Assembly (NCBI GenBank): GCA_951802425.1
Contig: OX637796.1
Location: forward strand, 1,488,001-1,552,000
Length of the DNA stretch: 64,000 bases
Reading direction: 5' to 3'
From: Clavaria fumosa
Lineage: Eukaryota; Basidiomycota; Agaricomycetes; Agaricales; Clavariaceae
The notes under the pieces were generated by a model that was not told the DNA's origin, made no database searches, and saw only the letters and a program-made list of their open reading frames with translations. Below are positions 5,988 to 56,090 of the stretch, piece by piece (the first letter of the stretch is position 1; each line of letters begins with the position of its first letter). Made by a program: the position numbers and the translations under genes.

Positions 5988-5989
5988 GT

Positions 5990-6000
5990 ATATTCGAACT
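5990..6000 (+). promoter_or_regulatory. Primer-binding site, complementary to the element's own LTR
   Basis: ATATTCGAACT lies 2 nt after the 5' LTR and pairs perfectly over 11 nt with AGTTCGAATAT at 5558-5568. I see no fit to a tRNA 3' end (no TGG start). This matches the self-priming arrangement known from Tf1 of fission yeast. Confidence 0.65.
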
Positions 6001-8607
6001 AACAACCTCGTGTATACAACTGGTCCTTTGCTTGCCCTTTGTGCTGCTGCTGCCTTGCTCCTTGCTGCAAAAGCCAAAGGTCCGATCCGAACCTCCGATC
6101 CGAAACTCCACTCCGAAGCTCCGGTCTGTTCGAGCGCACTTCGTGTGCATTTGCTCTGGACCTGGATTTGCCACAAGCCGTCTGTCCACGGCGATACAAC
6201 TAGGACATTTTCCTAACCTCCAATCTGAAACTCTGATCCATAACTCCGATCCGCACCTCCGATCCACACCTCCGATCCGCACCTCCGATCCACACCTCCG
6301 ATCTGCACCTCTGATCCGAAACTCCGCTCCGAAACTCCAGTCCGTTCAAGCACACTTTGTGTGCATTTGCTCCAGACCTGGATTTGCCACAAGCCATCTG
6401 TCCACGGCAATACAACTAGGACATTTTCCAAAGCCCAGCCAACAATTCCCAGTGCTCCTTAGCTCATCTCCTTCATGTTGGGAGAATTGAGGCAGGAAAA
6501 CACCGAATGCTGGACTTCCGAACTCTGGCCCCCTGTTCCTGGGTTCTCCCTGGCTCGCCTCCTTCATATCTCATGTTGCGAGGCTCCGAGACGGGAAACT
6601 CCGAACTCTGGATATCCGGACTCCGTCTCTTGCCACTCCGAGATGGGGAATGCTGGATATCCAGTCTCTGGCTCTTGTCTGTGCTTTCCTTGTGCTCGTT
6701 TCCTTCGTGGATTACCATGTTGCGAAACTCCGAGACGGGAAATGCCAAACTCCAAGCCCCAGACTCCCAAAGCTCTGAACCTCCGAACTCCAGAACTCCG
6801 ATATTGCTCTATTTTGAGCTTTCCTTGCGCTCGTTTCCTGCATGGATTACCATGTTGCGAAACTCCGAGACAGGAAATGCTGAACTCCGAGCTCCAGACC
6901 CCCAAAACTCCGAACCTCTGAACTCCGGAACTCCGATATTGCTCCTTTTTGAGCTGTCCTTGTGCTCGTTTCCTTTGTGGATTACCACATTGCGAAACTC
7001 CGAGACGGGAAATGCCAAATGCCGAGCACCAAAGTTCCAAACTGCAGACCTCTGAACTCCGGACACTTTGTCTTGCTTCGTGGCCCACTGTCTTGTCTCG
7101 ACATGGCCCTCTGAACTCTGATCTTGTCCCCTTGTGTGACTTGGTCCTTTGGACACCTGGCTGTACCATATACAATCCGCTGATTGTCCAGTGTACAAGC
7201 CTAACAATTCAAGGACTCCCGCACTTGCGGATATCTGACTCCGAAACTCCGATCCGACTCCAGCCCGATCCGGGCACGGACTCCGATGGGCGCTTGGCCA
7301 GCGCATACTCCGGACCTACTCCGGAACTCCGACTCCGGGACTCCGATTCTATCCTTGCTGCAGCGAGTCCGAATCTGGACCCAATTCTGGATGCTGCCCA
7401 CTGTGGTTGCATCACCAGTTCTCAGGATTGCTATCTTGTGAACACATCTGTCCAGCGAGGTTGCTCATGCAATCCTTGCTACTCTGAACTACTCTGAACT
7501 CCTCTGACATGGTCTCGGACCTCCACGCCACATCTCCACACAGCTCCGGACCACTCCGCACTCGCATTCTCGGACTCCGCATCTCCGAAACTCCGAAATT
7601 CCGCCCTCCTCTGATACTCTGAAAACTCCGAAATTCCAAAATTATGTTCCTTTGCTACATTGTTATGCTTCCTATGTCCCTATGTTTCCTGTTTACTCCA
7701 ATCCTCACAATCCCAAAACTCCAAAACTCTGCTTTTTTCTGATTCTTTAATACTCTGATACTCTGACTTCCCTTGACTTTACAAAAAACTCCGAAATCTT
7801 GTCCATACAATGTTGCCTTTTGTACAACTCCAACACTCCTTGTTTCCTGTTTTTGTTCTACTCTTCTGTCTACTCTAGCCCACTTCTTCACAATCCCTCA
7901 GTAAAACTTGGGAAATTTTTTCTTAAGATAAAAAATTTTTGTAGGAGGGGGGGGTGAGTGAACTTACAATAGGTCCTCACAGCCTCCCAGCATCTCTGAC
8001 CTTTTCTGCCCCCTCCTCCACACTTTGCTACCTCCGCGCCTCCGCTCTGCACCTCTGCACCTCCACTCTGCACCTCCGCACCTCCGCTCTGCTACTCCGC
8101 TGCTCTGACTCCAACTCTGCTACCTCTGCACCTCTCCTCCGAGACTCTGACTCCATTTCCACACCTCTGCACCTCTGCTCCAAACCTCCAAAACTCCGAT
8201 TCCCTTACCTCTGCTCCAACTCCGATTCCGCACCTCCGCTCCAACTCCGATTCCACACCTCTGCACTCCACTCCAAAACTCCAAAATTCAATTCTGCACC
8301 TCCACTCATCTCTGATTCCTCCCTCCACACTTCTACTCCTCTGTACCTCCACTCTGAATCTCCAAAACTCCAACTCCCTCACCTCCACACCTCTGCTCAA
8401 AAACTCCGAAGCTCCCAAACTCCGATTCTCTCAGCTCCACACCTCTGCTTCACATCTCCGACACCCTCTGACCCATCCGCACCATCTCCGACCTGCTCCA
8501 GACCTCCGACTCCAACTCCAGCCCCAGTTCCACCCACCTCCAACTCCAACTCTCTCCAACCCACACAGTGAAATACTGTCACTTAAGGGTCTTGAGGGCT
8601 CGACCCT

Positions 8608-8620
8608 AAGAGGGGGATAC
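8608..8620 (+). promoter_or_regulatory. Polypurine tract of CTCCG element copy 1
   Basis: AAGAGGGGGATAC directly precedes the TG of the 3' LTR, the expected plus-strand priming site of an LTR element. It is preserved before the other 3' LTRs at 47109, 48511 and, in reverse, at 58057. Confidence 0.8.
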
Positions 8621-9479
8621 TGTCACGGCCCTATCCAGTTACCCAGCCACCTCCGAAACACCTGCAATTACCTCCAATACATCTCCGATGTATCTCCGCT
8701 CCAACTCCGGCACCCCCGCTCCGACTCCGCCTTCTCTGCTCCAATTCTGCTCTGTCTCTGCTCCGGGGTCCGAAACTCCGGTCTGGACTTTCGTCGGACT
8801 TCGATATTGGTCCTTCGGACCAAATGGACTTTGTTTCTAGCATGTTCCTTAGTGCTAGTCCATGGTTAGTAACCATTGGGACGATGCCCACTACCCATGG
8901 GAACTTATTCTTTGCCTTACATGTATCATCTATGCCTTTCTCACTCCTCAGGTGAAATTATTGTAGATATTTGATATATTCATGTTTCACAGTCTGCCCT
9001 ATGCCCTACCCTAGTAGCATATAAGCCCCCATGTATCTCCATGATCCTCAGTTCGAATATTAATGTTATTTCTGGTCCTTGTCACTTGGTCTGTGCGTTA
9101 AGGGACTTCGTCCTCACTGTTCTCGACAGTCCCGACGAGTTCCGCAAAACTCCGGCGGACTCCGACGGACTCCAGGCGATTTCCTTTCCCTTTGGACTTC
9201 ATCCTTCCTTGTCCTGGAAAGCAAAGTACCAGCAAGGTTAAATTGGGACACGTATACACGTGGTGGCACAACCCATAAGTTGAGGCCATAGTCCCACCCC
9301 CTTTGACCTCCTTCTAGTCCTTCTAGCTTTTGTGTAGAGGAGAACTCCTTACGCAACTCCGATCCGGACTCCGACCAGACTCCGCTCCGCTCCGGCTTTG
9401 CCTTTGCCACCCTCCTTTTTGGTCTCCTCTACACTACCACCCCTACTCCTGCTTTGAAGCAAAGAATCAGATCTTAACA
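8621..9479 (+). repeat. 3' LTR of CTCCG element copy 1 (alpha type)
   Basis: An 859-bp LTR with the same ends and the same TATA and 11-mer arrangement as the 5' copy. The following TAATC (9480-9484) is the right-hand target duplication. Confidence 0.9.
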
Positions 9480-10560: not shown

Positions 10561-10755
10561 AATGTAGGCAACCACACAGTCACCTGTTCTGCCCCCTGTT
10601 GAGGTGGGTTAGGTTTACAGTTTGGACCTGGGGTATTTAGCCTATCCCCAGCTCCTATTGGACTGAGACCATATAGCTCAGTGGCTAAGAGCACCTGACA
10701 TGTATCTGGGAGGTCCTGGGTTCAATTCCCTGTGTGGTCACTTTTCTTACTCAAT
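10561..10755 (+). repeat. SINE-like 195-bp unit, copy 1
   Basis: A unit starting AATGTAGGCAACCACACAG and ending TTACTCAATA that contains a tRNA-like segment at 10667-10740. It is repeated directly and almost unchanged at 10925-11120. Confidence 0.7.
10667..10740 (+). ncRNA. tRNA-like sequence, copy 1 (probably SINE head)
   Basis: Exactly 74 nt in cloverleaf order: a 7-bp acceptor stem (GACCATA with TGTGGTC), a D arm (GCTC/GAGC), an anticodon arm, a 5-nt variable loop, a T arm with TTCAATT loop, and a discriminator A. Box A (TAGCTCAGTGGC) and box B (GGTTCAATTCC) fit RNA polymerase III promoters, and TTTT follows at once. Against a working tRNA, the anticodon stem is weak, position 33 is A instead of U, and the T stem has a T-T mismatch. 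It is best read as a tRNA-derived SINE promoter; the parent tRNA is uncertain. Confidence 0.55.
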
Positions 10756-10924: not shown

Positions 10925-11120
10925 AATGTAGGCAACCACACAGTCACCTGTTCTGCCCCCTGTTGAGGTGGGTTAGGTTTACAGTTTGGACTTGGGGTAT
11001 TTAGCCTATCCCCAACTCCTATTGGACTGAGACCATATAGCTCAGTGGCTAAGAGCACCCGACATGTATCTGGGAGGTCCTGGGTTCAATTCCCTGTGTG
11101 GTCACTTTTCTTACTCAATA
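10925..11120 (+). repeat. SINE-like 195-bp unit, copy 2
   Basis: A direct repeat of 10561-10755. Its last base is the last base of the whole 6.1-kb insertion, immediately before the duplicated TATCTTG, so this unit defines one end of the inserted element. Confidence 0.7.
11031..11104 (+). ncRNA. tRNA-like sequence, copy 2 (probably SINE head)
   Basis: The same 74-nt layout as the copy at 10667, with a C for T change in the anticodon stem. Box A, box B and a following TTTT (11106-11109) are intact. It ends 16 bp before the end of the insertion. Confidence 0.55.
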
Positions 11121-14744: not shown

Positions 14745-15032
14745 TGTTAGGATTGCTTACCTAAGCCATCCCAAAAGGAGGAGTTGTGGAGAAATTAGAG
14801 AAGATTGTTGGAAGGTCACATGACCTGTGGTGGAGGATTACATAATCAGGAGATCACATGACTTGGGCCTGGGCGCATCACGTGATCCGAGAGGTCCGAG
14901 CGTGGGAACGCTGGCAAATGCCGAAGCGTTCGCTATATATACTATGTCTTTTCCATTCTTGTACCCTTTTCCCCTTATCTTAGTATTGTCGTCATGACCT
15001 TACGCTTAAGTTGTGTGAGACCCAGTCTGATA
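14745..15032 (+). repeat. 5' LTR of the plus-strand Ty3 copy
   Basis: 288 bp, starting TGTTAGGATTGC and ending CAGTCTGATA (the consensus CA end is mutated). TATATATA lies near 14934. The segment ATCTTAGTATT (14977-14987) is the reverse complement of the primer-binding site. It has a CACGTG box, also seen in the intact LTRs. Confidence 0.8.
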
Positions 15033-15033
15033 T

Positions 15034-15044
15034 AATACTAAGAT
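15034..15044 (+). promoter_or_regulatory. Primer-binding site complementary to the element's own LTR
   Basis: AATACTAAGAT, 1 nt after the LTR, pairs over all 11 nt with ATCTTAGTATT at 14977-14987. In the intact element the equivalent bases are C instead of G here and G instead of C in the LTR, so the pair covaries. Confidence 0.65.
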
Positions 15045-15603
15045 CCGCCTGTCTGCCCTAGCCCCGTGTCCTAACCCGGCTAGCCTGGACCCTTAATTTC
15101 AAACTGTGACACGTTGTCACAGCTCAGCCCCTATCATCCTCTTCTCCTTTACCCTGCCCACGGTGTGTAACAGAACCGCGCAAAATTTTTACTGTGTGTA
15201 GATACACATGACCAGACCCAGAGGAAGTCTACTGTGACCCTCCCCAAGTGATACTGAGTGCCCAAGGCCTGGAACTTTGTTTTGCAGCTACGTACCAGTG
15301 AATCGTGTAGTGTACAGGGCAAGGAAAGGCCCCTACATAGTCTTTCTGTAGTTTCCTGGTCCAGTGGACAGGGCCCTTGCTCTGTGACCATTGTCAGAAG
15401 GGCGCACAGGCAACTCATTAGGAGTTGTGGAGCGACCACCTGGGACACCATTCGGGCCCCACGTTAACAAAAGTTTTATAGAATAAGAGTTCTATAGGTA
15501 CATAAGTACACAGAAGAGCAGCCTAAGAGAACAGGACTGTTAAGAGATCGAAGAAATCCTGAGTGCCCAAGGCCTGGAACTTTATTTACAGCATCCAGGG
15601 CCT
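15045..15603 (+). other. Leader of the plus-strand Ty3 copy
   Basis: Untranslated leader matching 33881-34515 of the intact element. A phrase GAGTGCCCAAGGCCTGGAAC occurs twice (near 15260 and 15561), once before a TTTGCAG and once before a TTTACAG. No ORF of note. Confidence 0.6.
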
Positions 15604-28649: not shown

Positions 28650-28939
28650 CAACTAAGTCTGACAGCAAACGTCGCTGCTGAGAACTTTGCACTGGAAGGA
28701 TTCATCTTCCCACCTTTAAGGTCACAAGTCATCCCTCCTGAGAGTTTCACCAGCCACCCATTGATTGAGCAGAACCTCTATCGTTTCGAGTATTACCAGA
28801 GGTATACAAGGACTTGGATAAAGGACCGACTACTCAGAGCCAATCCACAGACCTATTACCAGACACTTCGACTATTACAGGAGTATTCCCTGCATATTGA
28901 GAGACAAGTCTGCCAGGACTATCAACTAGCATTAGAAAC
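28650..28939 (+). pseudogene. Unrecognised open frame, interrupted by the intact Ty3 element
   Basis: The frame is open from about 28650 with no ATG in phase. It could be an exon (CTGACAG at 28659-28665 looks like an acceptor) or lack its start. It reads like a real protein: PPESFTSHPLIEQNLYRFEY, then YQRYTRTWIKDRLLR, then many Gln and Tyr. The Ty3 insertion at 28940 cuts it; with one GAAAC removed, the same frame resumes at 34841-34901 (EQTLRSTLAHQRGF) and runs out of the element. No domain recognised. Confidence 0.4.
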
Positions 28940-29244
28940 TGTCAGACTTAGTCTCACGGTTCACACAACTTAACGTAAGGTCGATGATGACGATACTAAC
29001 ATAAGGGGAAAAGGGTACAAGTAAGAAAGCGACGCAGTATATATAGCGAGAGGTTCGGGAGTTGCCGGTGTTCCCACGCTCGGACCCCGTGCGTCACGTG
29101 ATGCGTCCAGGCCCGGGTCACGTGATTTTCCCATTATGTAAGCCACCACCCATTCGGGTCACGTGACTCGTCCGCAAACTTCCCGCAACTCTTTTGCGAT
29201 CCTTTCTTGGCCTTTCCAACCTGCTTATGTAAGCGATCCTGACA
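28940..29244 (-). repeat. 3' LTR of the intact Ty3 element
   Basis: 305 bp; on the minus strand TGTCAGGATCGC...AAGTCTGACA. Differs from the 5' LTR near 29070 and 29153. Contains TATATATA and three CACGTG boxes. Confidence 0.97.
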
Positions 29245-29258
29245 TCACCCCCCTCTTA
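29245..29258 (-). promoter_or_regulatory. Polypurine tract of the intact Ty3 element
   Basis: On the minus strand TTAAGAGGGGGGTGA lies between the Pol stop and the TG of the 3' LTR. The tract overlaps the end of the Pol reading frame within a few bases. Confidence 0.8.
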
Positions 29259-32200
29259 AGGCTGGGCGTCTCGACCTGCCAACTTCGCCTTGTCAGGGTA
29301 TTGCTGGAAGAAGTCCCGGAGCAACAGTGCAACGTTAGTGAGGTTGCGACGAGGTTCCCAGGTGTTCTCCTCTGCAGGGTATCCTAACCACTTCACCAAA
29401 TACTTCACTCCCCGTCCAACCTTCTTGACATCAAGAATTTCCTCCACCTCATACTCCAAGTGGTCATCGTCAATCGTGGGGGGTGGGGGTGGAGGCAAGT
29501 TCTGGGAAGGGAAAGAGGGAGCAATATACGGGGTGAGTAGCAACTCATTGAAAACCCGGTGAATGCACCATGCTCGGGGGAGCTTGAGTCGGTATGCTGC
29601 TGGTCCAACCTTCTCTTCGATGGTGAAGGGTCCAGCCCGCTTGTTGTCAAGCTTCTTGGATGGTCGATCCATTTTCAGGTTCCGGGTATCCAGCCAGACT
29701 AAGTCCCCCTTTGAGTATTCACGACTTGGGCGCTTTCCTTTATCATAGCTAGCCTTCATCGCATCTGCCGCCTTCCCCATTGCATCCCTGGCTGCTCTTC
29801 GGGATTCCGTGAGCTTGGCCATCCACTCGTCTGCTGCAGGGTTCACTTCAGAGGGCGGCCGGATACCACCATTCCAAGGGTGCCGGCCATACTCCAGATA
29901 GAAAGGTGTGAATCCAGTGGCTGAGTGCTCACGGTTATTGAGCGCGAATTCAGCTGTGGATAGCCACTCTGCCCAATCATCCTGCAGATGGTCAACATAG
30001 GCCCGGAGATACACTTCAACCTCCTGATTGACCCGCTCTGTCTGTCCATCTGTTTGTGGGTGGAAGGCAGTGCTCGGGTTCGCCTTAACTCCAATCATCC
30101 CATAAAACTCCCTCATGAATCTGGACACAAATTGGGTTCCCCGGTCACTCACAACTTTCTGCGGGACTCCATGGTCGCGGAAGACCCGGTCTCGAAGGAT
30201 CCGAGCAGCACCAAGTCCCGTGAGGTCAAGGCCAATAGCTTCGATGAGAGTTCGTTTTGTAAACTTGTCGACAATGACAAGGATCGCATTGTGACCACGT
30301 GAGAGGGGGAAAGGTCCAACAATGTCCCAAGAGATGACTGCCCAGGGGCTCTCAGGGACAGGGTGCGGATGGAGTGGAGCGGCGCGCCTGGTACGATCAG
30401 GCTTGATTCGTTGGCATGTCTCACATCCACCTGCATACCGATTGGAATCCTTCACCATGCTCACCCACCAATAGGACCTCAGCAGAGCCGCCCTCAGTTT
30501 CCGTGGACCAGGGTGTCCTGCGATGGGGAGGTCATGCTCAAAGGTGAGCACTGCCTCACGTGCTTCTGGGGGCACCCAAGTGATTTCTGCCTTCCGCCAG
30601 AGTCCCATCCGATCTCTCATCCACTCATCATCAAGCTCCTCCGGCTTCTGCACATATACCGCACTGTTTTTCTGGAGTAGCATCTCCATCTCCGATGTGA
30701 ACGATGTGCGGGTCTCAGCCTCTGGGAAGACCTGTACTGGTGCATCCTCCTCCACCATCTCTCCATAGTCTGGCCTCCGTGAGAGTGCATCCGCTTTCGT
30801 GTTTGACTTCCCAGTACGGTACTTGATCTCGAAGTCAAAGCACTGGAGCTCTCCAACCCAACGGACCTGCCTCAGTTTCAACTTCTGGGGCTTCCGGAAG
30901 TACTGGAGGTTAGCATGGTCCATCCAGATTTCGATAGTTTCTTCCACCCCAATCAGGTAAGCCCGCCACTCGCGTAGTGCCCGGATTACAGCCAGGAACT
31001 CCTTGTCGTACACATCGTAATTCTTCTCAGCTGCAGTGAGGGCTTTGGAGATGTAGTCTACAACTCTCCAAGTCCCATCCACCTGCTGCTGTGAGAGAAC
31101 TCCTCCAGTCGCCAAGTTGCTCGCATCTGTTTCTACCTTCCATCTCCCTTTGTCTTGTGGTAGAGCCAAGACCGGGGCTGATACTAGTGCCAGGCGGAGA
31201 TCTTGGAAGGCTGCTTCCTCCTCCTCCTCCCATCTCCACGGGACTTTCCCTGTCAGCCGGAAGAGTGGTTTTGCCCGGGCAGAGAGATTTGGGATGTGCC
31301 GGCAGAGGTAGTTCAGCATCCCGTTGAATCTTTGTACCTCTTTTACATTTTTCGGTCTGGGCCAGTTACGGATCGCCGCGCCTTTAGCTGGGTCATGCTC
31401 TAGACGGTTGTGGGAGATCTTCATCCCCAGGAAGAAAACCTCACTCTTCTCGAACTCGCACTTGCTGAGTCTGAGACACAGGCCATTCTCCCCAAACTTC
31501 TTCAAGACCTGATCCATCCAATACCAATGTGTAGCCAAATCCTCTGCAAACACTATAACATCATCGACATAGGCTCGGACATGCCCCCCTGCAATCTCTT
31601 CTCTCAACACATGGTTCATGAAGCGCTGGAAGGTTGCAGGCGCATTCTGCAGCCCAAACCACATAACTGCTGGTTCGAAGAGTCCACGGGGCGTTAGGAA
31701 AGCACAGCGGTGCTGATGTTCTGGCCAGACCTGCATCGATGGGAAACCTCCCTTCGCATCAATCTTGGAATAGATGGTCGCCCCCTTTAACACATCCACA
31801 GTGTCTCGTATGAGGGGGAGGGGGTACTTGTCTTTGATTAGATACGAGTTCAGCCTAGAGTAATCGATAATCGGCCGCAGCTTGTCCTTCTCACGTTTGA
31901 AGAAGAAGGGGCTCGCGTACGGGGACTTCGAAGGTCGGATTCGTCCAGAAGCTAGCTGCTCATCCACCCAGCGATTCATTTCCACCATCTCTTCTCGCGT
32001 CAGAGAGTATAGCTTAGAGGAGAGGTGTCCAGGGTCTGTTTTAAACTCGATTTTGATATCAAAGTCAGGGCGGGAGCGGGGGAGCTCATCCCACTTTGCT
32101 TCACTAAAAACCAAAGGGTAGCGGCTGGGCCAATCAGGGGTAGGGCCAGTGTTGGGAAAACGGGTGTCCGGGATACTGGCCGAGGCCAGGGTACTCGCTT

Positions 32201-32906
32201 TTGGTGGACCTGAGGGTCGAACAGGGGACCGGTGGCTGTGTGGGGAGGAGGCACAGGAGTTGGGGCAGCGGGTGAGCCTTACTTCAGCTTTCACCCAGTC
32301 AATCTCTGGATTATGACGCTTTAGCCAATCATGCCCAAGGATCGCCGTGTGGGACTGAGTCTTCCCTAGCAGGAAGTGGATCCGCTCCTGGTGGTCGCCA
32401 ACCGTCACAAGCAGCTCCATCCCATACCGGATCTTACCATCTCTGTTCTGTGTTCCATCCACATTATACATGGTGATTGGATTCAGCAAGGGAGATGGTT
32501 CCAATCCCACTTTTTTCGCCCACTCCAAGTCCATAAAGCAGTTGGTGCAGCCTGAGTCGACAAGGGCTTTCGTAGTTGCCCCTTTGCCAGTGCTGAGAGC
32601 CTCCAGGTGCACCTGGATGGAGAGCTCTCGGGGCATACGCAATAGGGTGTCCTTCCGCACCTCTGCAAGGTGCTTTGTTGGCTCCACTTGGCTGCTAGTC
32701 CCCTTTTCTCTTTTCGGTATTTCACTTTTAGCGGTTTCCGTTTCCGCTTTGTCCTTCACCTCAGCCCCAATCCGGGTGTGTCTCCGCTGCAAGATAGTGT
32801 ATTTTGGGATACTAGCTGCGGGTACAGGGACGGGAGGGGGGCTGGGATATCTACTCCTGAGACTCCAGTTCGGACTCACTGGGCCTCGTCTCCAAAATCC
32901 GGCTCT
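29256..32906 (-). CDS. pol: Ty3 Pol polyprotein: protease, RT, RNase H, integrase, chromodomain
   Basis: About 1,210 residues; numbering from the GTG at 32879. Protease has DSG at 108-110. RT spans about 285-470 with YVDD at 437-440. RNase H has D585 (ETDAS), the YDKEF glutamate and the WMDH aspartate. Integrase has the zinc residues H782, H789, C819 and C822, and the catalytic triad D852, D912 and E948 with the 35-residue D-E spacing. The chromodomain (about 1138-1190, LEYEVEEIL...YLVKWLGYPAEENTWE) places it among chromoviruses. No ATG opens the frame: it is open from about 32906, overlaps the Gag end in the -1 frame, and so is probably made by frameshifting; GATTTTGG in the overlap offers a T-run for slippage. 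All motifs are intact. Confidence 0.95.
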   Translation of the reverse strand, partial: RAGFWRRGPVSPNWSLRSRYPSPPPVPVPAASIPKYTILQRRHTRIGAEVKDKAETETAKSEIPKREKGTSSQVEPTKHLAEVRKDTLLRMPRELSIQVHLEALSTGKGATTKALVDSGCTNCFMDLEWAKKVGLEPSPLLNPITMYNVDGTQNRDGKIRYGMELLVTVGDHQERIHFLLGKTQSHTAILGHDWLKRHNPEIDWVKAEVRLTRCPNSCASSPHSHRSPVRPSGPPKASTLASASIPDTRFPNTGPTPDWPSRYPLVFSEAKWDELPRSRPDFDIKIEFKTDPGHLSSKLYSLTREEMVEMNRWVDEQLASGRIRPSKSPYASPFFFKREKDKLRPIIDYSRLNSYLIKDKYPLPLIRDTVDVLKGATIYSKIDAKGGFPSMQVWPEHQHRCAFLTPRGLFEPAVMWFGLQNAPATFQRFMNHVLREEIAGGHVRAYVDDVIVFAEDLATHWYWMDQVLKKFGENGLCLRLSKCEFEKSEVFFLGMKISHNRLEHDPAKGAAIRNWPRPKNVKEVQRFNGMLNYLCRHIPNLSARAKPLFRLTGKVPWRWEEEEEAAFQDLRLALVSAPVLALPQDKGRWKVETDASNLATGGVLSQQQVDGTWRVVDYISKALTAAEKNYDVYDKEFLAVIRALREWRAYLIGVEETIEIWMDHANLQYFRKPQKLKLRQVRWVGELQCFDFEIKYRTGKSNTKADALSRRPDYGEMVEEDAPVQVFPEAETRTSFTSEMEMLLQKNSAVYVQKPEELDDEWMRDRMGLWRKAEITWVPPEAREAVLTFEHDLPIAGHPGPRKLRAALLRSYWWVSMVKDSNRYAGGCETCQRIKPDRTRRAAPLHPHPVPESPWAVISWDIVGPFPLSRGHNAILVIVDKFTKRTLIEAIGLDLTGLGAARILRDRVFRDHGVPQKVVSDRGTQFVSRFMREFYGMIGVKANPSTAFHPQTDGQTERVNQEVEVYLRAYVDHLQDDWAEWLSTAEFALNNREHSATGFTPFYLEYGRHPWNGGIRPPSEVNPAADEWMAKLTESRRAARDAMGKAADAMKASYDKGKRPSREYSKGDLVWLDTRNLKMDRPSKKLDNKRAGPFTIEEKVGPAAYRLKLPRAWCIHRVFNELLLTPYIAPSFPSQNLPPPPPPTIDDDHLEYEVEEILDVKKVGRGVKYLVKWLGYPAEENTWEPRRNLTNVALLLRDFFQQYPDKAKLAGRDAQP

Positions 32907-33877
32907 TCAACAGGAGCCCTCTTCTCTCTCTCGAGCAAATCCAGGTGGTCTCGGAGCAGTGCGATCTCGTTCTCATAGTCCTCTGCACTACGTGCCTGGC
33001 TTTCCACGGCGCGGATCTGCGGCCTCGGGATCTGCGGACGTGTGTCCTGGAGCTGGCAATCTCTCACCATGTGACCAGCTTGGCCACATCGGAAGCAGGT
33101 GCGCAACACTCCAGGGGCACGGGCACGATCCACCACCATGGCATCACCGGCATTGGTGGGACGCGGCATGGTGGGAGGGGCAGGGGTGCGGGCCAGAGGC
33201 TGGGCCAGGAAGGGACGGGGGGCTGGGGCGAAGCGGGTTTGTTGAGGGAGGGGGCGGCTGGTTGCGGGCAGAGCAGGACGCACAGAGTTCTGTTGTGCGA
33301 TGACTCCATCGAGGCGATGCTGCTGAGCGTCTAGCTTTTCGGCAAGTGCCTTCCACTGCACGTAGGTCTCTGGCATTGGCGAAACACCATAGACCTTTCC
33401 CACTAGCCTCCTGCTCAGATTCGACTCCAGCCAATGGACCAGGATGTCCGAATTGGCCACTTCTGTCATCCCCGCTCTTCGGAACATTGTTTCGAACTTT
33501 GCAAAGAACTCAGGTGCCGTCATGACACCCTGTTTCAACTTCGCAATATCTGCGAGGGCAGTCGCACGGTCGTTCGGGTCATCGAACGCTCGCTTCATCT
33601 CTTCCACAAATTCTGCCCAGGTTCCAACCTCGTTGTTACCCAGGATTTCCTCTCCCTTCACATTTGCCCATTCTGCGGCAAACCCCTTGCCAGTAATTTT
33701 GCTGAGGGTGTAGAGGACCTTTGCCAGGTCCGTGGCATAGATTATCGGATTCGCCATAAACAGGAGGCGGAGCGACCGGAGGAATGTACAGAAATTTCTT
33801 TTTTGCCCATCGAATGGGGCGACGACTAAATCCAGCCTCGTGGCATGGACTTCAGGCGGGGCGACGTGGTCAGCCAT
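32876..33877 (-). CDS. gag: Ty3 Gag
   Basis: 333 residues from ATG 33877. The N-terminal two-thirds is a helical capsid-type region (LDLVVAPFDGQKRNF, LFMANPIIYATDL, EFFAKFETMFRR). A proline-rich linker (about 200-240) leads to a CCHC knuckle CFRCGQAGHMVRDC (about 261-274), which binds the element RNA. The C-terminus is a charged helix with NEIALLRDHLDLLEREKRAP. The TGA at 32876-32878 overlaps Pol. Two other copies in the window (15607-16413 and 34908-35934) are broken, so this is the reference copy. Confidence 0.93.
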   Translation of the reverse strand: MADHVAPPEVHATRLDLVVAPFDGQKRNFCTFLRSLRLLFMANPIIYATDLAKVLYTLSKITGKGFAAEWANVKGEEILGNNEVGTWAEFVEEMKRAFDDPNDRATALADIAKLKQGVMTAPEFFAKFETMFRRAGMTEVANSDILVHWLESNLSRRLVGKVYGVSPMPETYVQWKALAEKLDAQQHRLDGVIAQQNSVRPALPATSRPLPQQTRFAPAPRPFLAQPLARTPAPPTMPRPTNAGDAMVVDRARAPGVLRTCFRCGQAGHMVRDCQLQDTRPQIPRPQIRAVESQARSAEDYENEIALLRDHLDLLEREKRAPVEEPDFGDEAQ

Positions 33878-34515
33878 CACAGACCCTGGTGGTGGTGATG
33901 GGGTTTCGGGGACGTCGGTAACAGGGGAATCGGGGGGGAGCTGGGCTCGACCCGGTCTCGGACGCAGACGCTGTAAATAGAATTCTGGGCCTTGGGCACT
34001 CAGGATTTCTTCGATCTCTTAGCAGTCCTGTCCTCTCAGGCTGCTCTCTATGTATCTAGGTACTTATAGAACTCTTATTCTATAAAACTTGTTGCTAGCG
34101 TGGGGCCCAAATGGTGTCCCAGGTGGTCACTCCACAACTCCTAGTGAGTTGCCCGTGTGCCCTTCTGACAATGGTCACAGAGCAAGGGCCCTGTCCACTG
34201 GACCAGGAAACTACAGAAAAACTATGTATAGGGCCTTTCTGTGCCCTGTACACTACACGATTCACTGGTACGTAGCTGTAAAGCAAAGTTCCGGGCCTTT
34301 GGCACTCGGTGTCTCTTGGGGAGGGTCACAGTAGACTTCCTCTGGGTCTGGTCACGTGTATCTACACACAGTAAAAATTTCACACGGTTCTGTTGCACAC
34401 CGTGGGCAGGGTAAAGAGAAAGAGGATGAGGGGGATAAGCTGTCACAGAGTGTGACAGTTTGAGATAGGGGTCCAGGCTAGCCGGGTTAGGACACGGGGC
34501 TAGGGCAGACAGGGG
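33878..34515 (-). other. Leader of the intact Ty3 element
   Basis: Untranslated leader of about 640 nt between the primer-binding site and Gag, conserved with the copies at 15045-15603 and 35935-36520. It contains a repeated phrase of the type GAGTGCC(C/A)AAGGCC(C/T)GGAA, ahead of TTTACAGC each time, which could be a splice acceptor or part of a packaging structure. No ORF of note. Confidence 0.6.
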
Positions 34516-34518
34516 TTG

Positions 34519-34528
34519 ATGTTAGTAT
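34519..34528 (-). promoter_or_regulatory. Primer-binding site complementary to the element's own LTR
   Basis: On the minus strand ATACTAACAT starts 2 nt from the LTR edge and is the reverse complement of ATGTTAGTAT in the 5' LTR (plus text 34584-34593), which lies about 43 nt downstream of TATATATA. Ten pairs, then one mismatch and one more pair. Confidence 0.65.
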
Positions 34529-34530
34529 TG

Positions 34531-34835
34531 TGTCAGACTTAGTCTCACGGTTCACACAACTTAACGTAAGGTCGATGATGACGATACTAACATAAGGGGA
34601 AAAGGGTACAAGTAAGAAAGCGACGCAGTATATATAGCGAGAGGTTCGGGAGTTGCCGGCGTTCCCACGCTCGGACCCCGTGCGTCACGTGATGCGTCCA
34701 GGCCCGGGTCACGTGATTTTCCCATTATGTAAGCCACCACCCGTTCGGGTCACGTGACTCGTCCGCAAACTTCCCGCAACTCTTTTGCGATCCTTTCTTG
34801 GCCTTTCCAACCTGCTTATGTAAGCGATCCTGACA
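34531..34835 (-). repeat. 5' LTR of the intact Ty3 element
   Basis: 305 bp. On the minus strand it starts TGTCAGGATCGC and ends AAGTCTGACA. TATATATA lies at 34629-34636 and three CACGTG boxes at 34686-34691, 34710-34715 and 34751-34756, each within a TCACGTGA-like context. Confidence 0.97.
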
Positions 34836-34840
34836 GAAAC

Positions 34841-36521: not shown

Positions 36522-36534
36522 ATGTTAGTATTGT
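36522..36534 (-). promoter_or_regulatory. Primer-binding site complementary to its LTR (broken Ty3 copy)
   Basis: On the minus strand ACAATACTAACAT at the LTR edge pairs over 13 nt with ATGTTAGTATTGT in the LTR (plus text 36584-36596). This is the longest pairing of the three family members. Confidence 0.65.
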
Positions 36535-36836
36535 GTCAGACTTAGTCTCATGCTTCACACAGCTTAACGTAAGGTTGATGATGACAATACTAACATAAGG
36601 GGAAAAGGGTACAAGTAGGAAAAAGATGTAGTATATATAGCAGGAACCCCAGGAGTTGTTGGTGTTCCCACACTCGGACCCATGAGTCACGTGATGCGCC
36701 CAGGCCTGGGTCATGTGACTTTCACATTACATAATCCGCCACCCATCCAGGTCATGTGACTTTCCCATGATCTTCCCGCATCTCTTTCGCAACCCTCCCT
36801 CTTGCTTCTCTGGTGCTTATGTAAGCAGTCCTGACA
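36534..36836 (-). repeat. 5' LTR of the broken minus-strand Ty3 copy
   Basis: 303 bp; on the minus strand TGTCAGGACTGC...AAGTCTGACA. Contains TATATA and CACGTG or CATGTG boxes. Its outer neighbour is a Gag fragment of a different Ty3 family. Confidence 0.88.
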
Positions 36837-39223: not shown

Positions 39224-39366
39224 CAGTAGTACTGAATGAAATAATTAACTAGACACAGCAGTTAGGTATAATTCATAGTGTACTCTTTGCAGCTACAGCT
39301 GGACAAGGAATCCTTATGGTCAGTCAACTTGTCAAGTTAACTTGTCAAAGGTAGTACATGGGGGAC

Positions 39367-40540
39367 TAGTAGACTAGACACAGCTGACAGCTGTGGATCT
39401 AGTGGACTAGTTACAGCTACTAGGTGTGGACCTGGTGGACTAGTTGCAGGTGCTAGCTATGGGTCTAGTGAACTAGTTACAGCTACCAGTTGTGGATCTA
39501 GTGGACTAGGTGCAGCAAGTAGGTGTAGGTCTAGTGGACTAGTTGCAGCTGTAGATGTAGTGAACTAGTTACAGCTATTAGTTGTAGATGTAGTGGACTA
39601 GTTGCAGCTACTAGCTGTGGGCCTAGTGGACTAGTTGCAGCTACTAGCTGTAGATGTAGTGAACTAGTTACAGCTATTAGTTGTAGATGTAGTGAACTAG
39701 TTGCAGCTAGTAGGTGTAGGTCTAGTAGACTAGTTGCAGCTATTAGCTGTAGATGTAGTGAATTAGTTACAGCTAGTAGCTGTGGACCTAGTGGACTAGT
39801 TGCAGCTACTAGCTGTAGATCTAGTGAACTAGTTACAGCTATTAGTTGTAGATGTAGTGAACTAGTTGCAGCTATTAGCTGTAGATGTAGTGAACTAGTT
39901 ACAGCTAGTAGCTGTGGGCCTAGTGGACTAGTTGCAGCTACTAGCTGTGGGCCTAGTAGACTAGTTGCAGCTACTAGCTGTAGATGTAGTGAACTAGTTA
40001 CAGCTATTAGTTGTAGATGTAGTGAACTAGTTGCAGCTAGTAGGTGTAGGTCTAGTGGACTAGTTGCAGCTATTAGCTGTAGATGTAGTGAACTAGTTAC
40101 AGCTAGTAGCTGTGGGCCTAGTGGGCTAGTTGCAGCTACTAGCTGTGGGCCTAGTGGACTAGTTGCAGCTACTAGCTGTAGATGTAGTGAACTAGTTACA
40201 GCTAGTAGGTGTAGGTCTAGTAGACTAGTTGCAGCTAGTAGTTGTGGACCTAGTGGACTAGTTGCAGCTACCAGCTGTGGGTCTAGTGGACTAGTTACAG
40301 CCATTAGCTGTGGATCTAGTGAACTAGTTGCAGCTAGTTGCTGTAGATCTAGTGAACTAGTTACAGCTATTAGTTGTAGATCTAGTGAACTAGTTGCAGC
40401 TAGTAGCTGTGGACCTAGTGGACTAGTTGCAGCTACTAGCTGTGGGTCTAGTCAATTACTAGCTGTAGATCTGGTGAATTAGTTACAGCTACTAGCTGTG
40501 GATCTAGTGCACTAGTTGCAGCTAGTTGCTGTGGGTCTGG
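39367..40540 (+). repeat. 33-bp minisatellite, copy 1 left arm
   Basis: Units of the type CTGTGGGCCTAGTGGACTAG plus TTGCAGCTACTAG, 33 bp each, with four or five sequence variants in alternation. CTAG occurs two or three times per unit and many units contain AGCTACTAGCTG-type mini-palindromes. Confidence 0.92.
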
Positions 40541-42171
40541 TATTCCTTGCAATAAACTATTGTAATTACAATAGGTGGCCATTGCGAGAATGACTGAACA
40601 AACAATGGCAAACAAAATATGCCAAAATAAAAACAAAACTCGAAATTGAGCAGCCCTGTGCCTGGTCCCTCAGGTACAGGTTACCAATCAAGCATAGCTG
40701 CTTCTGGTAAGCTGCTATGACTGTGGGAAAAATTTTGCATGGCTTGCAAAATATGACTTTTTATACACCAAAAATTCGGCAAAAATCAGGAGATTCCAGA
40801 TCCAGACACCCCACATTTGTATCTGCCTTGGTTCAGTGTCAATTTGCAAAATACACACAAAATATTCATTTTTCTACAGTTCTGCAGTACTCTGGCTTAA
40901 AAATGGATAGGAGAGGATACACACACCTACACACACTACCTGTGGACATATGGGGAGGGTGTGGATTAGTTTAACAACTCACCCACCATCTCTGTCACCT
41001 CCCTGGAATCCATTACTGGGAATTAGGGTGTTATTGGCCTGGGAGCATGGCTATTTGTTATATTGCAAATTCAAGCCATCAGACTACACCTTATGACATC
41101 TAATACAATCATACAAAAGCCCATAATATTTGGTGCAGAATTACAGATTCCCCATGTCTATTTTCCCAAAATTCTCAAAATCTCTCCCCAGACAGTCCCC
41201 TTTGTCAAATCACATATTCCTGTGGTCTGATAGCTGAAAAGGTATGCATGAATACATGTTCAAAGTTTGGTGAAGTTAGGCCAAGTTCTCAGGAAGATAG
41301 CCCAGAATGTGTCTTTTAGAGCACAGTCTAAAGTGAGAGCAAAGATGAAGGCAAGGATAAGGAAGACCTTGACTGTCCTCCAAAAGACTCATTCTGAGCT
41401 ATCTTCTTGAGAACTTGGCCTAACTTCACCAAACTTTGAACATGTATTCATGCATACCTTTTCAGCTATCAGACCACAGGAATATGTGATTTGACAAAGG
41501 GGACTGTCTGGGGAGAGATTTTGAGAATTTTGGGAAAATAGACATGGGGAATCTGTAATTCTGCACCAAATATTATGGGCTTTTGTATGATTGTATTAGA
41601 TGTCATAAGGTGTAGTCTGATGGCTTGAATTTGCAATATAACAAATAGCCATGCTCCCAGGCCAATAACACCCTAATTCCCAGTAATGGATTCCAGGGAG
41701 GTGACAGAGATGGTGGGTGAGTTGTTAAACTAATCCACACCCTCCCCATATGTCCACAGGTAGTGTGTGTAGGTGTGTGTATCCTCTCCTATCCATTTTT
41801 AAGCCAGAGTACTGCAGAACTGTAGAAAAATGAATATTTTGTGTGTATTTTGCAAATTGACACTGAACCAAGGCAGATACAAATGTGGGGTGTCTGGATC
41901 TGGAATCTCCTGATTTTTGCCGAATTTTTGGTGTATAAAAAGTCATATTTTGCAAGCCATGCAAAATTTTTCCCACAGTCATAGCAGCTTACCAGAAGCA
42001 GCTATGCTTGATTGGTAACCTGTACCTGAGGGACCAGGCACAGGGCTGCTCAATTTCGAGTTTTATTTTTATTTTTGGCATATTTTGTTTGCCATTGTTT
42101 GTTCAGTCATTCTCACAATGGCCACCTATTGTAATTACAATAGTTTATTGCAAGGAATCTACATCATTGAC
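40541..42171. repeat. Inner inverted repeat of copy 1
   Basis: Arms of roughly 785 bp facing each other around a 42-bp spacer, nearly identical by eye. Each includes AAACTATTGTAATTACAATA near its outer end and a TTGCATGGCTTGCAAAATATG stretch. Confidence 0.92.
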
Positions 42172-50234: not shown

Positions 50235-50375
50235 CAGTAGTACTGAATGAAATAATTAACTAGACACAGCAGTTAGGTATAATTCATAGTGTACTCTTTG
50301 CAGCTACAGCTGGACAAGGAATCCTTATGGTCAGTCAACTTGTCAAGTTAACTTGTCAAAGGTAGTACATGGGGG

Positions 50376-52065
50376 ACTAGTAGACTAGATACAGCTGACA
50401 GCTGTGGATCTAGTGGACTAGTTACAGCTACTAGGTGTGGACCTGGTGGACTAGTTGCAGGTGCTAGCTATGGGTCTAGTGAACTAGTTACAGCTGCTAG
50501 CTGTGGGTCCAGTGGACTAGTTACAGCTAGTAGCTGTGGACCTAGTGGACTAGTTGCAGCTACTAGCTGTAGATCTAGTGAACTAGTTACAGCTATTAGT
50601 TGTAGATGTAGTGAACTAGTTGCAGCTGGTAGGTGTAGGTCTAGTGGACTAGTTGCAGCTATTAGCTGTAGATCTAGTGAACTAGTTACAGCTAGTAGCT
50701 GTGGGCCTAGTGGACTAGTTGCAGCTACTAGCTGTGGGCCTAGTGGACTAGTTGCAGCTATTAGTTGTAGATGTAGTGAACTAGTTGCAGCTAGTAGGTG
50801 TAGGTCTAGTAGACTAGTTGTGGCTAGTAGCTGTGGACCTAGTGGACTAGTTGCAGCTACTAGCTGTAGATCTAGTGAACTAGTTACAGCTATTAGTTGT
50901 AGATGTAGTGAACTAGTTGCAGCTAGTAGGTGTAGGTCTAGTGGACTAGTTGCAGCTATTAGTTGTAGATGTAGTGAACTAGTTGCAGCTGGTAGGTGTA
51001 GGTCTAGTGGACTAGTTGCAGCTATTAGCTGTAGATGTAGTGAACTAGTTACAGCTAGTAGCTGTGGGCCTAGTGGACTAGTTGCAGCTATTAGCTGTAG
51101 ATGTAGTGAACTAGTTACAGCTAGTAGCTGTGGGCCTAGTGGACTAGTTGCAGCTACTAGCTGTAGATCTAGTGAGCTAGTTACAGCTATTAGTTGTAGA
51201 TGTAGTGAACTAGTTGCAGCTAGTAGGTGTAGGTCTAGTGGACTAGTTGCAGCTATTAGTTGTAGATGTAGTGAACTAGTTGCAGCTGGTAGGTATAGGT
51301 CTAGTGGACTAGTTGCAGCTATTAGCTGTAGATCTAGTGAACTAGTTACAGCTAGTAGCTGTGGGCCTAGTGGATTAGTTGCAGCTACTAGCTGTGGGCC
51401 TAGTGGACTAGTTGCAGCTAGTAGGTGTAGGTCTAGTAGACTAGTTGCAGCTATTAGCTGTGGGCCTAGTGGACTAGTTGCAGCTACTAGCTGTGGGCCT
51501 AGTGGACTAGTTGCAGCTATTAGCTGTAGATGTAGTGAACTAGTTACAGCTAGTAGCTGTGGGCCTAGTGGACTAGTTGCAGCTACTAGCTGTGGGCCTA
51601 GTGGACTAGTTGCAGCTAGTAGCTGTGGGCCGAGTGGACTAGATACAGCTACTAGCTGTGGGCCTAGTGGACTAGTTGCAGCTACTAGCTGTAGATGTAG
51701 TGAACTAGTTACAGCTATTAGTTGTAGATGTAGTGAACTAGTTGCAGCTAGTAGCTGTGGGCCTAGTGGACTAGTTGCAGCTACTAGCTGTAGATCTAGT
51801 GAACTAGTTACAGCTATTAGTTGTAGATGTAGTGAACTAGTTGCAGCTAGTAGCTGTGGGCCTAGTGGACTAGTTGCAGCTACTAGCTGTGGGCCTAGTG
51901 GACTAGTTGCAGCTATTAGCTGTAGATGTAGTGAACTAGTTACAGCTAGTAGCTGTGGGCCTAGTGGACTAGTTGCAGCTACTAGCTGTGGATCTAGTGG
52001 ACTAGTTGCAGCTAGTTGCCGTGGGTTGGTAGACTGGTTACAGCTATTAGCTGTGGATCTAGTCA
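50376..52065 (+). repeat. 33-bp minisatellite, copy 2 left arm, with higher-order structure
   Basis: About 50 units. Units fall into classes (GGGCCTAGTGGAC, AGATCTAGTGAAC, AGATGTAGTGAAC, AGGTCTAGTGGAC), and blocks of several units in fixed order recur, for example twice between about 50830 and 51330. The long plus-strand ORF here (50820-52073) exists because the period is a multiple of three. Confidence 0.92.
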
Positions 52066-53710
52066 GTCAATGATGTAGATTCCTTGCAATAAACTATTGT
52101 AATTACAATAGGTGGCCATTGTGAGAATGACTGAACAAACAATGGCAAACAAAATATGCCAAAAATAAACACAAAACTCGAAATTGAGCAGCCCTGTGCC
52201 TGGTCCCTCAGGTACAGGTTACCAATCAAGCATAGCTGCTTTTGATAAGCTGCTATGACTGTGGAAAAAATTTTGCATGGCTTGCAAAATATGACTTTTT
52301 ATACACCAAAAAATCGGCAAAAATCAGGAGATTCCAGATCCGGACACCCCACATTTGTATCTGCCTTGGCTCAGTGTCAATTTGCAAAATACACAGAAAA
52401 TATTCATTTTTCTACAGTTCTGCAGTACTCTGGCTTAAAAATGGATAGGAGAGGATACACACACCTACACACACTACCTGTGGACATATGGGGAGGGTGT
52501 GGATTAGTTTAACAACTCACCCACCATCTCTGTCACCTCCCTGGAATCCATTACTAGGAATTAGGGTGTTATTGGCCTGGGAGCATGGCTATTTGTTATA
52601 TTGCAAATTCCAGCCATCAGACTACACCTTATGACATCTAATACAATCACACAAAAGCCCATAATATTTGGTGCAGAATTACAGATTCCCCATGTCTATT
52701 TTCTCAAAATTCTCAAAATCTCTCCCCAGACAGTCCCCTTTGTCAAATCACATATTCCTGTGGTCTGATAGCTGACAAGGTATGTGTGAATACATGTTCA
52801 AAGTTTGGTGAAGTTAGGCCAAGTTCTCAAGAAGATAGCTCAGATTGAGTCTTTTGGAGGACAGTCAAGGTCTTCCTTATCCTTGCCTTCATCTTTGCTC
52901 TCACTTTAGACTGTCCTCTAAAAGACACATTCTGGGCTATCTTCCTGAGAACTTGGCCTAACTTCACCAAACTTTGAACATGTATTCACACATACCTTGT
53001 CAGCTATCAGACCACAGGAATATGTGATTTGACAAAGGGGACTGTCTGGGGAGAGATTTTGAGAATTTTGAGAAAATAGACATGGGGAATCTGTAATTCT
53101 GCACCAAATATTATGGGCTTTTGTGTGATTGTATTAGATGTCATAAGGTGTAGTCTGATGGCTGGAATTTGCAATATAACAAATAGCCATGCTCCCAGGC
53201 CAATAACACCCTAATTCCTAGTAATGGATTCCAGGGAGGTGACAGAGATGGTGGGTGAGTTGTTAAACTAATCCACACCCTCCCCATATGTCCACAGGTA
53301 GTGTGTGTAGGTGTGTGTATCCTCTCCTATCCATTTTTAAGCCAGAGTACTGCAGAACTGTAGAAAAATGAATATTTTCTGTGTATTTTGCAAATTGACA
53401 CTGAGCCAAGGCAGATACAAATGTGGGGTGTCCGGATCTGGAATCTCCTGATTTTTGCCGATTTTTTGGTGTATAAAAAGTCATATTTTGCAAGCCATGC
53501 AAAATTTTTTCCACAGTCATAGCAGCTTACCAAAAGCAGCTATGCTTGATTGGTAACCTGTACCTGAGGGACCAGGCACAGGGCTGCTCAATTTCGAGTT
53601 TTGTGTTTATTTTTGGCATATTTTGTTTGCCATTGTTTGTTCAGTCATTCTCACAATGGCCACCTATTGTAATTACAATAGTTTATTGCAAGGAATCTAC
53701 ATCATTGACT
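52066..53710. repeat. Inner inverted repeat of copy 2
   Basis: Two nearly identical arms of about 800 bp around a 42-bp spacer whose orientation is opposite to that of copy 1, so copies 1 and 2 are inverted relative to each other. Confidence 0.92.
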
Positions 53711-56090
53711 GACTAGATCCACAGCTAATAGCTGTAACCAGTCTACCAACCCACAGCAACTAGCTGCAACTAGTCCACTAGATCCACAGCTAGTAGCTGT
53801 AACTAATTCACCAGATCTACAGCTAGTAACTGACTAGACCCACAGCTAGTAGGTGCAACTAGTCCACTAGGTCCACAGCTACTAGCTGCAACTAGTTCAC
53901 TACATCTACAACTAATAGCTGTAACTAGTTCACTAGATCCACAGCTAATGGCTGTAACTAGTCTGCTAGACCAACAGCTGGTAGCTGCCACTAGTCCACT
54001 AGGTCCACAACTACTAGCTGCAACTAGTCTACTAGACCTACACCTACTAGCTGCAACTAGTTTGCTACATCTACAACTAATAGCTGTAACTAGTTCACTA
54101 CATCTATAGCTAGTAGCTGCAACTAGTCCACTAGGCCCACAGCTACTAGCTGTAACTAGTCCACTAGGCCCACAGCTACTAGCTGTAACTAGTTCACTAC
54201 ATCTACAGCTAATAGCTGCAACTAGTCTACTAGACCTACACCTACTAGCTGCAACTAGTCCACTAGGCCCACTGCTAGTAGCTGCAACTGCAACTAGTCC
54301 ACTAGGCCCACAGCTACTAGCTGTAACTAGTTCACTACATCTACAGCTAATAGCTGCAACTAGTCCACTAGACCTACACCTACTAGCTGCAACTAGTTCA
54401 CTACATCTACAACTAATAGCTGTAACTAGTTCACTAGATCTACAGCTAGTAGCTGCAACTAGTCCACTAGCCCTACACCTACTAGCTGCAACTAGTTCAC
54501 TACATCTACAACTAATAGCTGTAACTAGTTCACTAGATCTACAGCTAGTAGCTGCAACTAGTCCACTAGGTCCACAGCTACTAGCTGCAACTAGTTCACT
54601 ACGTCTACAGCTAATAGCTGCAACTAGTCCACTAGCCCTACACCTACTAGCTGCAACTAGTTCACTACATCTACAACTAATAGCTGTAACTAGTTCACTA
54701 GATCTACAGCTAGTAGCTGCAACTAGTCCACTAGGTCCACAGCTACTAGCTGTAACTAGTTCACTACAACTACAGCTAATAGCTGCAACTAGTTCACTAC
54801 ATCTACAGCTAGTAGCTGCAACTAGTCCACTAGGTCCACAGCTACTAGCTGTAACTAGTTCACTACATCTACAGCTAATAGCTGCAACTAGTTCACTACA
54901 TCTACAGCTAATAGCTGTAACTAGTTCACTACATCTACAGCTAGTAGCTGCAACTAGTCCACTAGGCCCACAGCTACTAGCTGCAACTAGTCCACTAGAC
55001 CTACACCTACCAGCTGCAACTAGTTCACTACATCTACAACTAATAGCTGTAACTAGTTCACTAGATCTACAGCTAGTAGCTGCAACTAGTCCACTAGGCC
55101 CACAGCTAGTAGCTGTAACTAGTCCACTAGGCCCACAGCTACTAGCTGCAACTAGTCCACTAGGCCCACAGCTAGTAGCTGCAACTAGTCCACTAGGCCC
55201 ACAGCTACTAGCTGTAACTAGTTCACTACATCTACAGCTAATAGCTGCAACTAGTCTACTAGACCTACACCTACTAGCTGCAACTAGTCCACTAGGCCCA
55301 CTGCTAGTAGCTGCAACTGCAACTAGTCCACTAGGCCCACAGCTACTAGCTGTAACTAGTTTACTACATCTACAGCTAATAGCTGCAACTAGTCCACTAG
55401 ACCTACACCTACTAGCTGCAACTAGTTCACTACATCTACAGCTACTAGCTGCAACTAGTTCACTAGATCTACAGCTAGTAGCTGCAACTAGTCCACTAGG
55501 TCCACAGCTACTAGCTGTAACTAGTTCACTACATCTACAGCTAATAGCAGCAACTAGTCTACTAGACCTACACCTACTAGCTGCAACTAGTTCACTACAT
55601 CTACAACTAATAGCTGCAACTAGTCCACTAGGCCCACGGCTAGTAGCTGCAACTAGTCCACTAGGCCCACAGCTACTAGCTGTAACTAGTTCACTACATC
55701 TACAGCTAATAGCTGCAACTAGTCCACTAGACCTACACCTACTAGCTGCAACTAGTTCACTACATCTACAACTAATAGCTGTAACTAGTTCACTAGATCT
55801 ACAGCTAGTAGCTGCAACTAGTCCACTAGGTCCACAGCTACTAGCTGTAACTAGTTCACTACATCTACAGCTAATAGCTGCAACTAGTCCACTAGACCTA
55901 CACCTACTTGCTGCACCTAGTCCACTAGATCCACAACTGGTAGCTGTAACTAGTCCACTGGACCCACAGCTAGCAGCTGTAACTAGTTCACTAGACCCAT
56001 AGCTAGCACCTGCAACTAGTCCACCAGGTCCACACCTAGTAGCTGTAACTAGTCCACTAGATCCACAGCTGTCAGCTGTATCTAGTCTAC
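53711..56090 (-). repeat. 33-bp minisatellite, copy 2 right arm
   Basis: About 70 units in inverted orientation, with the same unit classes. Two places carry a 6-bp extra repeat (GCAACTGCAACTAG near 54284 and 55313) inside otherwise identical blocks, marking a segmental duplication about 1 kb apart. Confidence 0.92.

Follow-up and report, generated by a model that had tools for sequence, protein, structure and literature searches.

Probable Tf1-type self-priming in a Ty3-type, chromodomain-bearing LTR retrotransposon of Clavaria fumosa

The complete element and the paired sites of the window copies

The window (the 64-kb stretch of DNA analysed, which is contained in the 48.8 Mb and 17 contigs of the genome searched) carries on its reverse strand a complete Ty3/chromovirus element of 5.9 kb, here called type A, between 28940 and 34835. 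It was delimited by its LTR pair and its target duplication. The two LTRs are 305 bp each, differ from one another at 2 positions, and were placed by their mutual alignment at 34531-34835 (5' LTR, TGTCAG...CTGACA) and 28940-29244 (3' LTR). The 5-bp target-site duplication GTTTC follows at 34836-34840 (upstream copy) and 28935-28939. Between the LTRs lie a gag ORF (32876-34018, first Met at 33877) with Ty3_capsid and zf-CCHC matches, a pol ORF (29256-32906) with protease, RT, RNase H, integrase, SH3_Tf2-1 and chromodomain, and a polypurine tract, AAGAGGGGGG, read off the sequence before the 3' LTR (29248-29257), all on the reverse strand. The gag and pol frames overlap by 31 nt (32876-32906, reverse strand), and the frame would require a -1 shift. 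Named hosts among the pol relatives were Armillaria, Sanghuangporus, Trametes and Ganoderma (best 120 of 1412, the first 20 being without a host name), all of which we take to be Agaricomycetes. No match to the pol gene was found in the viral contigs searched. Elsewhere in the window there are long arrays of a 33-bp repeat (39244-40592 and 50255-55318), and inverted copies of 0.9-1.9 kb with 98-99% identity between 40 and 64 kb.

In the type-A element, the 10 nt beginning 2 nt past the 5' LTR are the exact complement of 10 nt within the same LTR. The putative primer-binding site (PBS), ATACTAACAT, occupies 34519-34528 and is separated from the LTR end by the spacer CA (34529-34530). Its partner, ATGTTAGTAT, lies at 34584-34593 and would form the first 10 nt of the RNA, with a TATA box (34629-34636) 43 nt before the predicted start, all on the reverse strand. 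A preliminary description of this DNA had proposed that the PBS is complementary to part of its own LTR in three copies, as in Tf1, and had placed the site next to the 5' LTR. The site is indeed near the LTR, but the pairing starts 2 nt after its end. The 10-nt complement at 34519-34528 and 34584-34593 was found as described. So was that of 13 nt in the third copy (LTR 36534-36836, reverse strand), between 36522-36534 and 36584-36596, with the self-primer itself at 36587-36596 and the PBS at 36522-36531. The three further pairs up to 36534 come from the spacer and the LTR terminus, and they are missing in many type-A copies because LTR positions 11-12 are then CG or CA rather than TG. For the type-B copy at 14.9 kb (forward strand, LTR about 14745-15032 with its start read by eye), complementarity was correctly described, but the coordinates were displaced by one: 14977-14987 pairs with 15035-15045, not with 15034-15044. 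Here the self-primer ATCTTAGTAT is at 14977-14986 and the PBS ATACTAAGAT at 15036-15045, with one further pair at 15035. The coupled change between the two copies, from ATGTTAG/CTAACAT to ATCTTAG/CTAAGAT, is real.

The chance of a match this long in the 24 nt after the LTR was estimated with Markov-shuffled LTRs, and came to 0.35% for the 34.5-kb copy, 0.05% for the 36.5-kb copy and 0 of 2000 shuffles for the 14.9-kb copy. Since 4 of 436 internal 24-mers of the 34.5-kb copy match its LTR over an equal length, a single copy is only suggestive.

Copies of the window family and coupled changes

The window family is large, the first genome searches giving 1240 and 1502 candidates. An anchored pattern found 97 copies, and its reversed control none. 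The copy set was begun with 60 near-identical loci and diverged ones were sought afterwards. The counts below are weighted to copies near the queries. Scanning of 131 matches gave 11 without an LTR end and 120 with one, of which 111 had a recognisable PBS in register. The nine outside the 111 comprise six that consist of an LTR only, two (L010 and L092) in which a deletion affects the LTR end or the PBS, and L125, in which all pairs are present when it is read in register. The window copies at 34.5 and 14.9 kb recur as L009 and L039, so that at least these are counted twice. All ten positions pair in 104 of the 111 readings, which fall into three LTR/site pairs, ATGTTAGTAT (type A, 58 readings), ATCTTAGTAT (type B, 43) and ATGCTAGTAT (type C, 3), each with its complement; for type C the PBS is ATACTAGCAT. 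The seven mispaired readings are L069, L072, L073, L115, L123, L124 and L128.

The three types also bear on a quite different explanation of the site. Type A (34519-34528) reads TACTAAC followed by ATCAACCCCTGTCTGCCCTAG, which is like a branch point and 3' splice site; the motif could then be an intron branch point with its pyrimidine tract and TAG, and the match to the LTR incidental. That fails on comparison, as type B has TACTAAG, type C has TACTAGC and the other four families described below lack the motif, yet the pairing is kept. We regard a branch point as extremely improbable.

For the analysis of covariation, 111 leaders were taken by a separate filter that excluded copies of insufficient length and those whose PBS was broken, and 65 of them were distinct. 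Among these 65, standard pairs fill 99.2% of the 650 cells; when the partner is displaced by 1-3 columns they fill 23.7-60.8%. Both sides have changed in two of the ten pairs. The number of cells paired, the number of double-change cells and the covariation score were each reached by none of 500 shuffles. Two measures were unfavourable: 133 of the 500 shuffles had at least as many pairs with a double change, and all 500 had at least as many pair types. On a tree built without the primer and PBS columns, and whose bootstrap had not settled, the step between A and B is one change in each partner, and that between A and C is two LTR changes and one PBS change, so that the three pair types of the family represent only two coupled changes. 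On the same tree the B copies have at their base L072, whose LTR is of type A and whose PBS is of type B; at the base of the other copies is L123, which combines a type-C LTR with a type-A PBS. Co-variation was thus found in further copies; its absence from them was to have counted against the proposal.

Other Ty3-type families and the tRNA comparison

Five further loci (L149 to L153) were picked for their long open frames among the 150 RT matches listed. The chromodomain PF00385 scored above cut-off in the pol of the window element and in L149, L150, L151 and L152; in L153 its score was 23.0 bits, below the cut-off of 25.1. LTR pairs were obtained for L151, L152 and L153, and in each of these a stretch of 11 nt, the first of them exactly 2 nt past the LTR end, is complementary to the element's own LTR. 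The longest LTR matches in the three were 11-12 nt, a length reached in 0 to 0.15% of shuffled LTRs. The control 24-mers attaining the observed length were 0 of 493 in L151, 0 of 396 in L152 and 0 of 518 in L153, and the host flanks past the 3' LTR gave matches of 5-7 nt only.

L150 showed no visible LTR pair, and its primer AGTCTGATAAT and PBS ATTATCAGACT were proposed by a scan that gave two candidates. The one with a TATA box and ACA + 2 nt end was chosen, and the 12-nt match trimmed by one nucleotide so as to begin at A. The LTR end predicted in this way was confirmed by genome matches, 15 of 41 of which stop exactly there, 2 nt before the PBS, while 4 of 41 end 3-8 nt later and 22 of 41 are full length. 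L149 could not be kept as a family of its own: it showed no LTR end and the scan gave only a nested type-B LTR. Its RT (L004) and the RT of L001 have 98% identity, and L001 is adjoined by an L153-type LTR match.

The window also holds a second LTR element, at 5127-9479 on the forward strand, 4.35 kb long, with LTRs (5127-5987 and 8621-9479) that are 97% identical. This 5.1-kb element, so called after its position, has its own self-primer pair, AGTTCGAATAT at 5558-5568 and the PBS ATATTCGAACT at 5990-6000 (both forward strand), and 1 of its 215 control 24-mers reached the observed length. It may be non-autonomous, because the one ORF scanned (8000-8869) had no Pfam match.

All five families with a readable LTR end (the window family and L150, L151, L152 and L153) share one design, ie 10-11 nt of pairing that begins exactly 2 nt past the LTR, with a primer that begins with A and a TATA box 30-43 nt upstream of it. 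The primers of the four further families, AGTTTGAATAT, AGCGTTGTTCA, AGCTTCGATCT and AGTCTGATAAT, are all different. We consider this agreement across families to be the decisive evidence for primer/PBS pairing.

Coupled changes were found beyond the window family as well. In F150, 14 of 15 copies pair at all 11 positions, with either AGTCTGATAAT or AGTCTGATTAT and in each case a fitting PBS (a coupled A/T change); its tree has three LTR changes and two PBS changes, and the sole mispaired copy is L173. Eight of 13 F153 copies pair fully, and the other five lose one pair by a C-to-T or G-to-A change at CpG. Between L153 and the 5.1-kb element there is a coupled T/C and A/G change, although both are CpG transitions and decay could also give these. 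In F152 five of six copies pair fully and the site shows no co-variation. In total there is one coupled change between A and B, one between A and C, about two in F150 and one between F153 and the 5.1-kb element; the number of independent events had thus been overstated, being few per family, and an independent-pairs test of them was without power.

The site is located where that for a tRNA primer would be, and either the 3' end of a tRNA or, as in half-tRNA priming, its interior might bind there. The tRNA-like genes listed number 61, which is a lower bound; 40 were compared and each of the other 21 shares its bit score with a compared one. In this comparison the longest match anchored at the tRNA 3' end was 1-2 nt for all eight types of site, in agreement with the earlier expectation that no tRNA would fit. 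When matches to any part of a tRNA were allowed, the 11-nt site matched over at most 6 nt in types A, B and C, F150 and F152, and over at most 8 nt in F151 and F153. The site does not have the form of the tRNA-primed class, ie a start with TGG and a fit to a tRNA 3' end. Neither the window nor three family loci gave a tRNA-type site of 12 nt; of 9 nt there were seven near CA in the window, as by chance, and none at the LTR ends found (positions 1-38500 covered). No tRNA-primed element that might serve as positive control was identified. In favour of a tRNA primer, AGTTCGAATAT of the 5.1-kb element has 9 nt in common with the tRNA gene L147, but the sites of the five families are unrelated to one another and each matches its own LTR. 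With 40 tRNA genes compared, priming by a tRNA seems to us very unlikely. The primer that has these 9 nt in common with L147 (AGTTCGAAT; 5558-5568 of the window, L177-L187) resembles the T-arm of a tRNA. Two tRNA-Thr(TGT) genes lie close to each other in the window at 10667-10741 and 11031-11105 (forward strand).

Predicted RNA start, leader folding and the priming model

In the eight copies examined, a set without type C, a TATA box is present at -30 to -43 and a pyrimidine precedes the A of the primer. Leaders were taken as far as gag, the start of which was set at the first Met of the first long ORF, and several are poor in ATG. That of type A (33878-34593, reverse strand, 716 nt) has a single ATG, at +1 itself and so perhaps too near the cap for use, against a mean of 8.3 in shuffles. 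Those of L151 (875 nt) and L152 (785 nt) have none, against shuffle means of 6.0 and 5.8, although ATGs are present just before the predicted start, at -9 and -14, respectively. The type-B copy has two (8.1 in shuffles), the third copy four (9.5), L153 two (4.5) and L150 two (2.1), and in the 5.1-kb element they occur at +14, +86 and +201. The depletion is not general, F150, F153 and the 5.1-kb element showing little or none of it. The TATA spacing, the pyrimidine|A context and the ATG-poor leaders of several copies agree with the RNA start predicted from the pairing.

In three window copies the leader fold of minimum energy includes the primer/PBS helix, with z between -3.9 and -6.0. The leader is predicted to fold strongly and with more hairpins, as it might if the pairing served as a structural hairpin for packaging, dimerisation or translation and not as a primer. 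Such a hairpin, however, has no need to start exactly 2 nt past the LTR in every family, nor for its other arm to consist of the 10-11 nt that follow immediately on a pyrimidine at TATA distance. Among copies, the primer starts anywhere from 56 to 513 nt away from the LTR end. A purely structural role is thus also most improbable. One other leader hairpin, at about +134 to +152 of type-A and type-B leaders, has its arms exchanged from one type to the other, reading CTGTCACA/TGTGACAG in A (6 copies) and CTGTGACA/TGTCACAG in B (24 copies). The exceptions are six A- or C-type copies with one mismatch, one A-type copy with the B form and one decayed B copy.

Side duplexes of the Tf1 type reached P < 0.05 in one of 20 tests (F150, behind the PBS, 0.033); behind the PBS the values were 0.19 for F153 and 0.10 for the 5.1-kb element. 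The third duplex of the 'pretzel' was not found in types A and B, where P behind the PBS was 0.96 and 0.93, respectively, and P before the PBS 0.51 and 0.41. Relatives of F153 have a 7-bp duplex behind the PBS with coupled changes, all seven pairs being present in 11 of 13, with one wobble and one mismatch in the others. In relatives of F150 a 7-bp duplex shows no coupled changes, and all seven pairs are present in 9 of 15, with wobbles in three and mismatches in three. Support for this duplex is partial in two other families and lacking in the window family.

The paired sites, their recurrence in five families, the coupled changes and the lack of a fit to tRNA together support the initial reading of Tf1-like self-priming, to which we give a probability of about 0.93 from the sequence comparisons made. 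The RNA would start at the A of ATGTTAGTAT, and its first 10 nt could therefore fold onto the site 2 nt past the 5' LTR. The RNase H of the element would cut the RNA behind nucleotide 10 (nucleotide 11 in the other families), and the freed 10-11-mer would then be extended into U5. Because of the 2-nt spacer the cDNA would exceed the integrated LTR by 2 nt, which is expected if integrase trims 2 nt. A more tentative extension, to which we give somewhat less than even odds, is that the PBS is a heritable copy of the primer, rewritten to the parent LTR in each cycle when plus-strand DNA copies the attached primer. One LTR mutation would then yield a coupled pair, within a cycle or two and without selection; the mispaired L123 and L124, L173 and L072 would be intermediates caught in the process, and all Ty3-type families of this fungus would do without a tRNA primer.

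In Tf1 and Tf2 of Schizosaccharomyces pombe, the founding self-primed elements, the 5' end of the RNA complements a PBS behind the 5' LTR, as predicted here, and they too belong to the Ty3 group with a chromodomain. The pairing is of 11 nt in Tf1 (PMC7175516, PMC10085805), compared to 10-11 nt here and 10 nt in the window family. Tf1 has a single ORF (PMC10085805), whereas gag and pol here are in two overlapping frames. For self-priming Tf1 is reported to require three duplexes, of which two join sequence beside the PBS to LTR sequence (PMC10085805); the third was not found in the window family. For Tj1, Tosmo1-3 and Tcry1 of other fission yeasts the self-primer was likewise read from sequence, and the LTR ends in CA (PMC4600332, PMC10085805), though their hosts are ascomycetes. 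Self-priming is described as inferred for Tj1 (PMC4600332), as a common feature of Tf1/sushi elements (PMC10085805) and as noted in some chromoviruses (PMC3601003). It was predicted for the majority of Tcn1-clade elements of mosses and club-mosses (PMC6317226), whose hosts, unlike here, are plants; for a Selaginella element an earlier paper (PMC2864245) reported neither tRNA nor self-priming. Tcn1 of Cryptococcus neoformans and marY1 of Tricholoma matsutake are also basidiomycete chromoviruses, here likened by description only. Self-priming was proposed for Tcn1 and possibly novel priming for Tcn2-5 (PMC7175516), and marY1 is tabulated with the Tf1/Sushi-related clades in PMC6317226 and appears in the tree of PMC10085805. 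The rarity first attributed to the mechanism was therefore overstated, given its frequency in Tf1/sushi elements and the proposal for Tcn1. The terms PBS, self-prim and tRNA are absent from a survey of fungal LTR elements (PMC3248453), and among the titles listed by a literature search, outside which most subscription journals fell, none was a survey of priming in Agaricomycete families. Self-priming as such is thus known already; what may be new is its breadth in this host and the case made for it there by comparison.

What is added is support for self-priming in a mushroom-type fungus by comparison alone. It consists of five families with unrelated primers, coupled changes that occur in nature, an LTR end that was first predicted and then confirmed and, in several families, leaders free of ATG by which the RNA start is bracketed. 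Leaders nearly free of ATG, though not found in all families, are a possible means of placing the transcript starts of such elements. The design amounts to a rule, in which the LTR end is followed by 2 nt and then by the complement of a pyrimidine|A and the 10-11 nt that begin there at TATA distance. This rule can annotate chromoviruses missed by PBS finders based on tRNA, and can be extended to those basidiomycete elements, Tcn2-5 among them, for which the mode of priming was left open.
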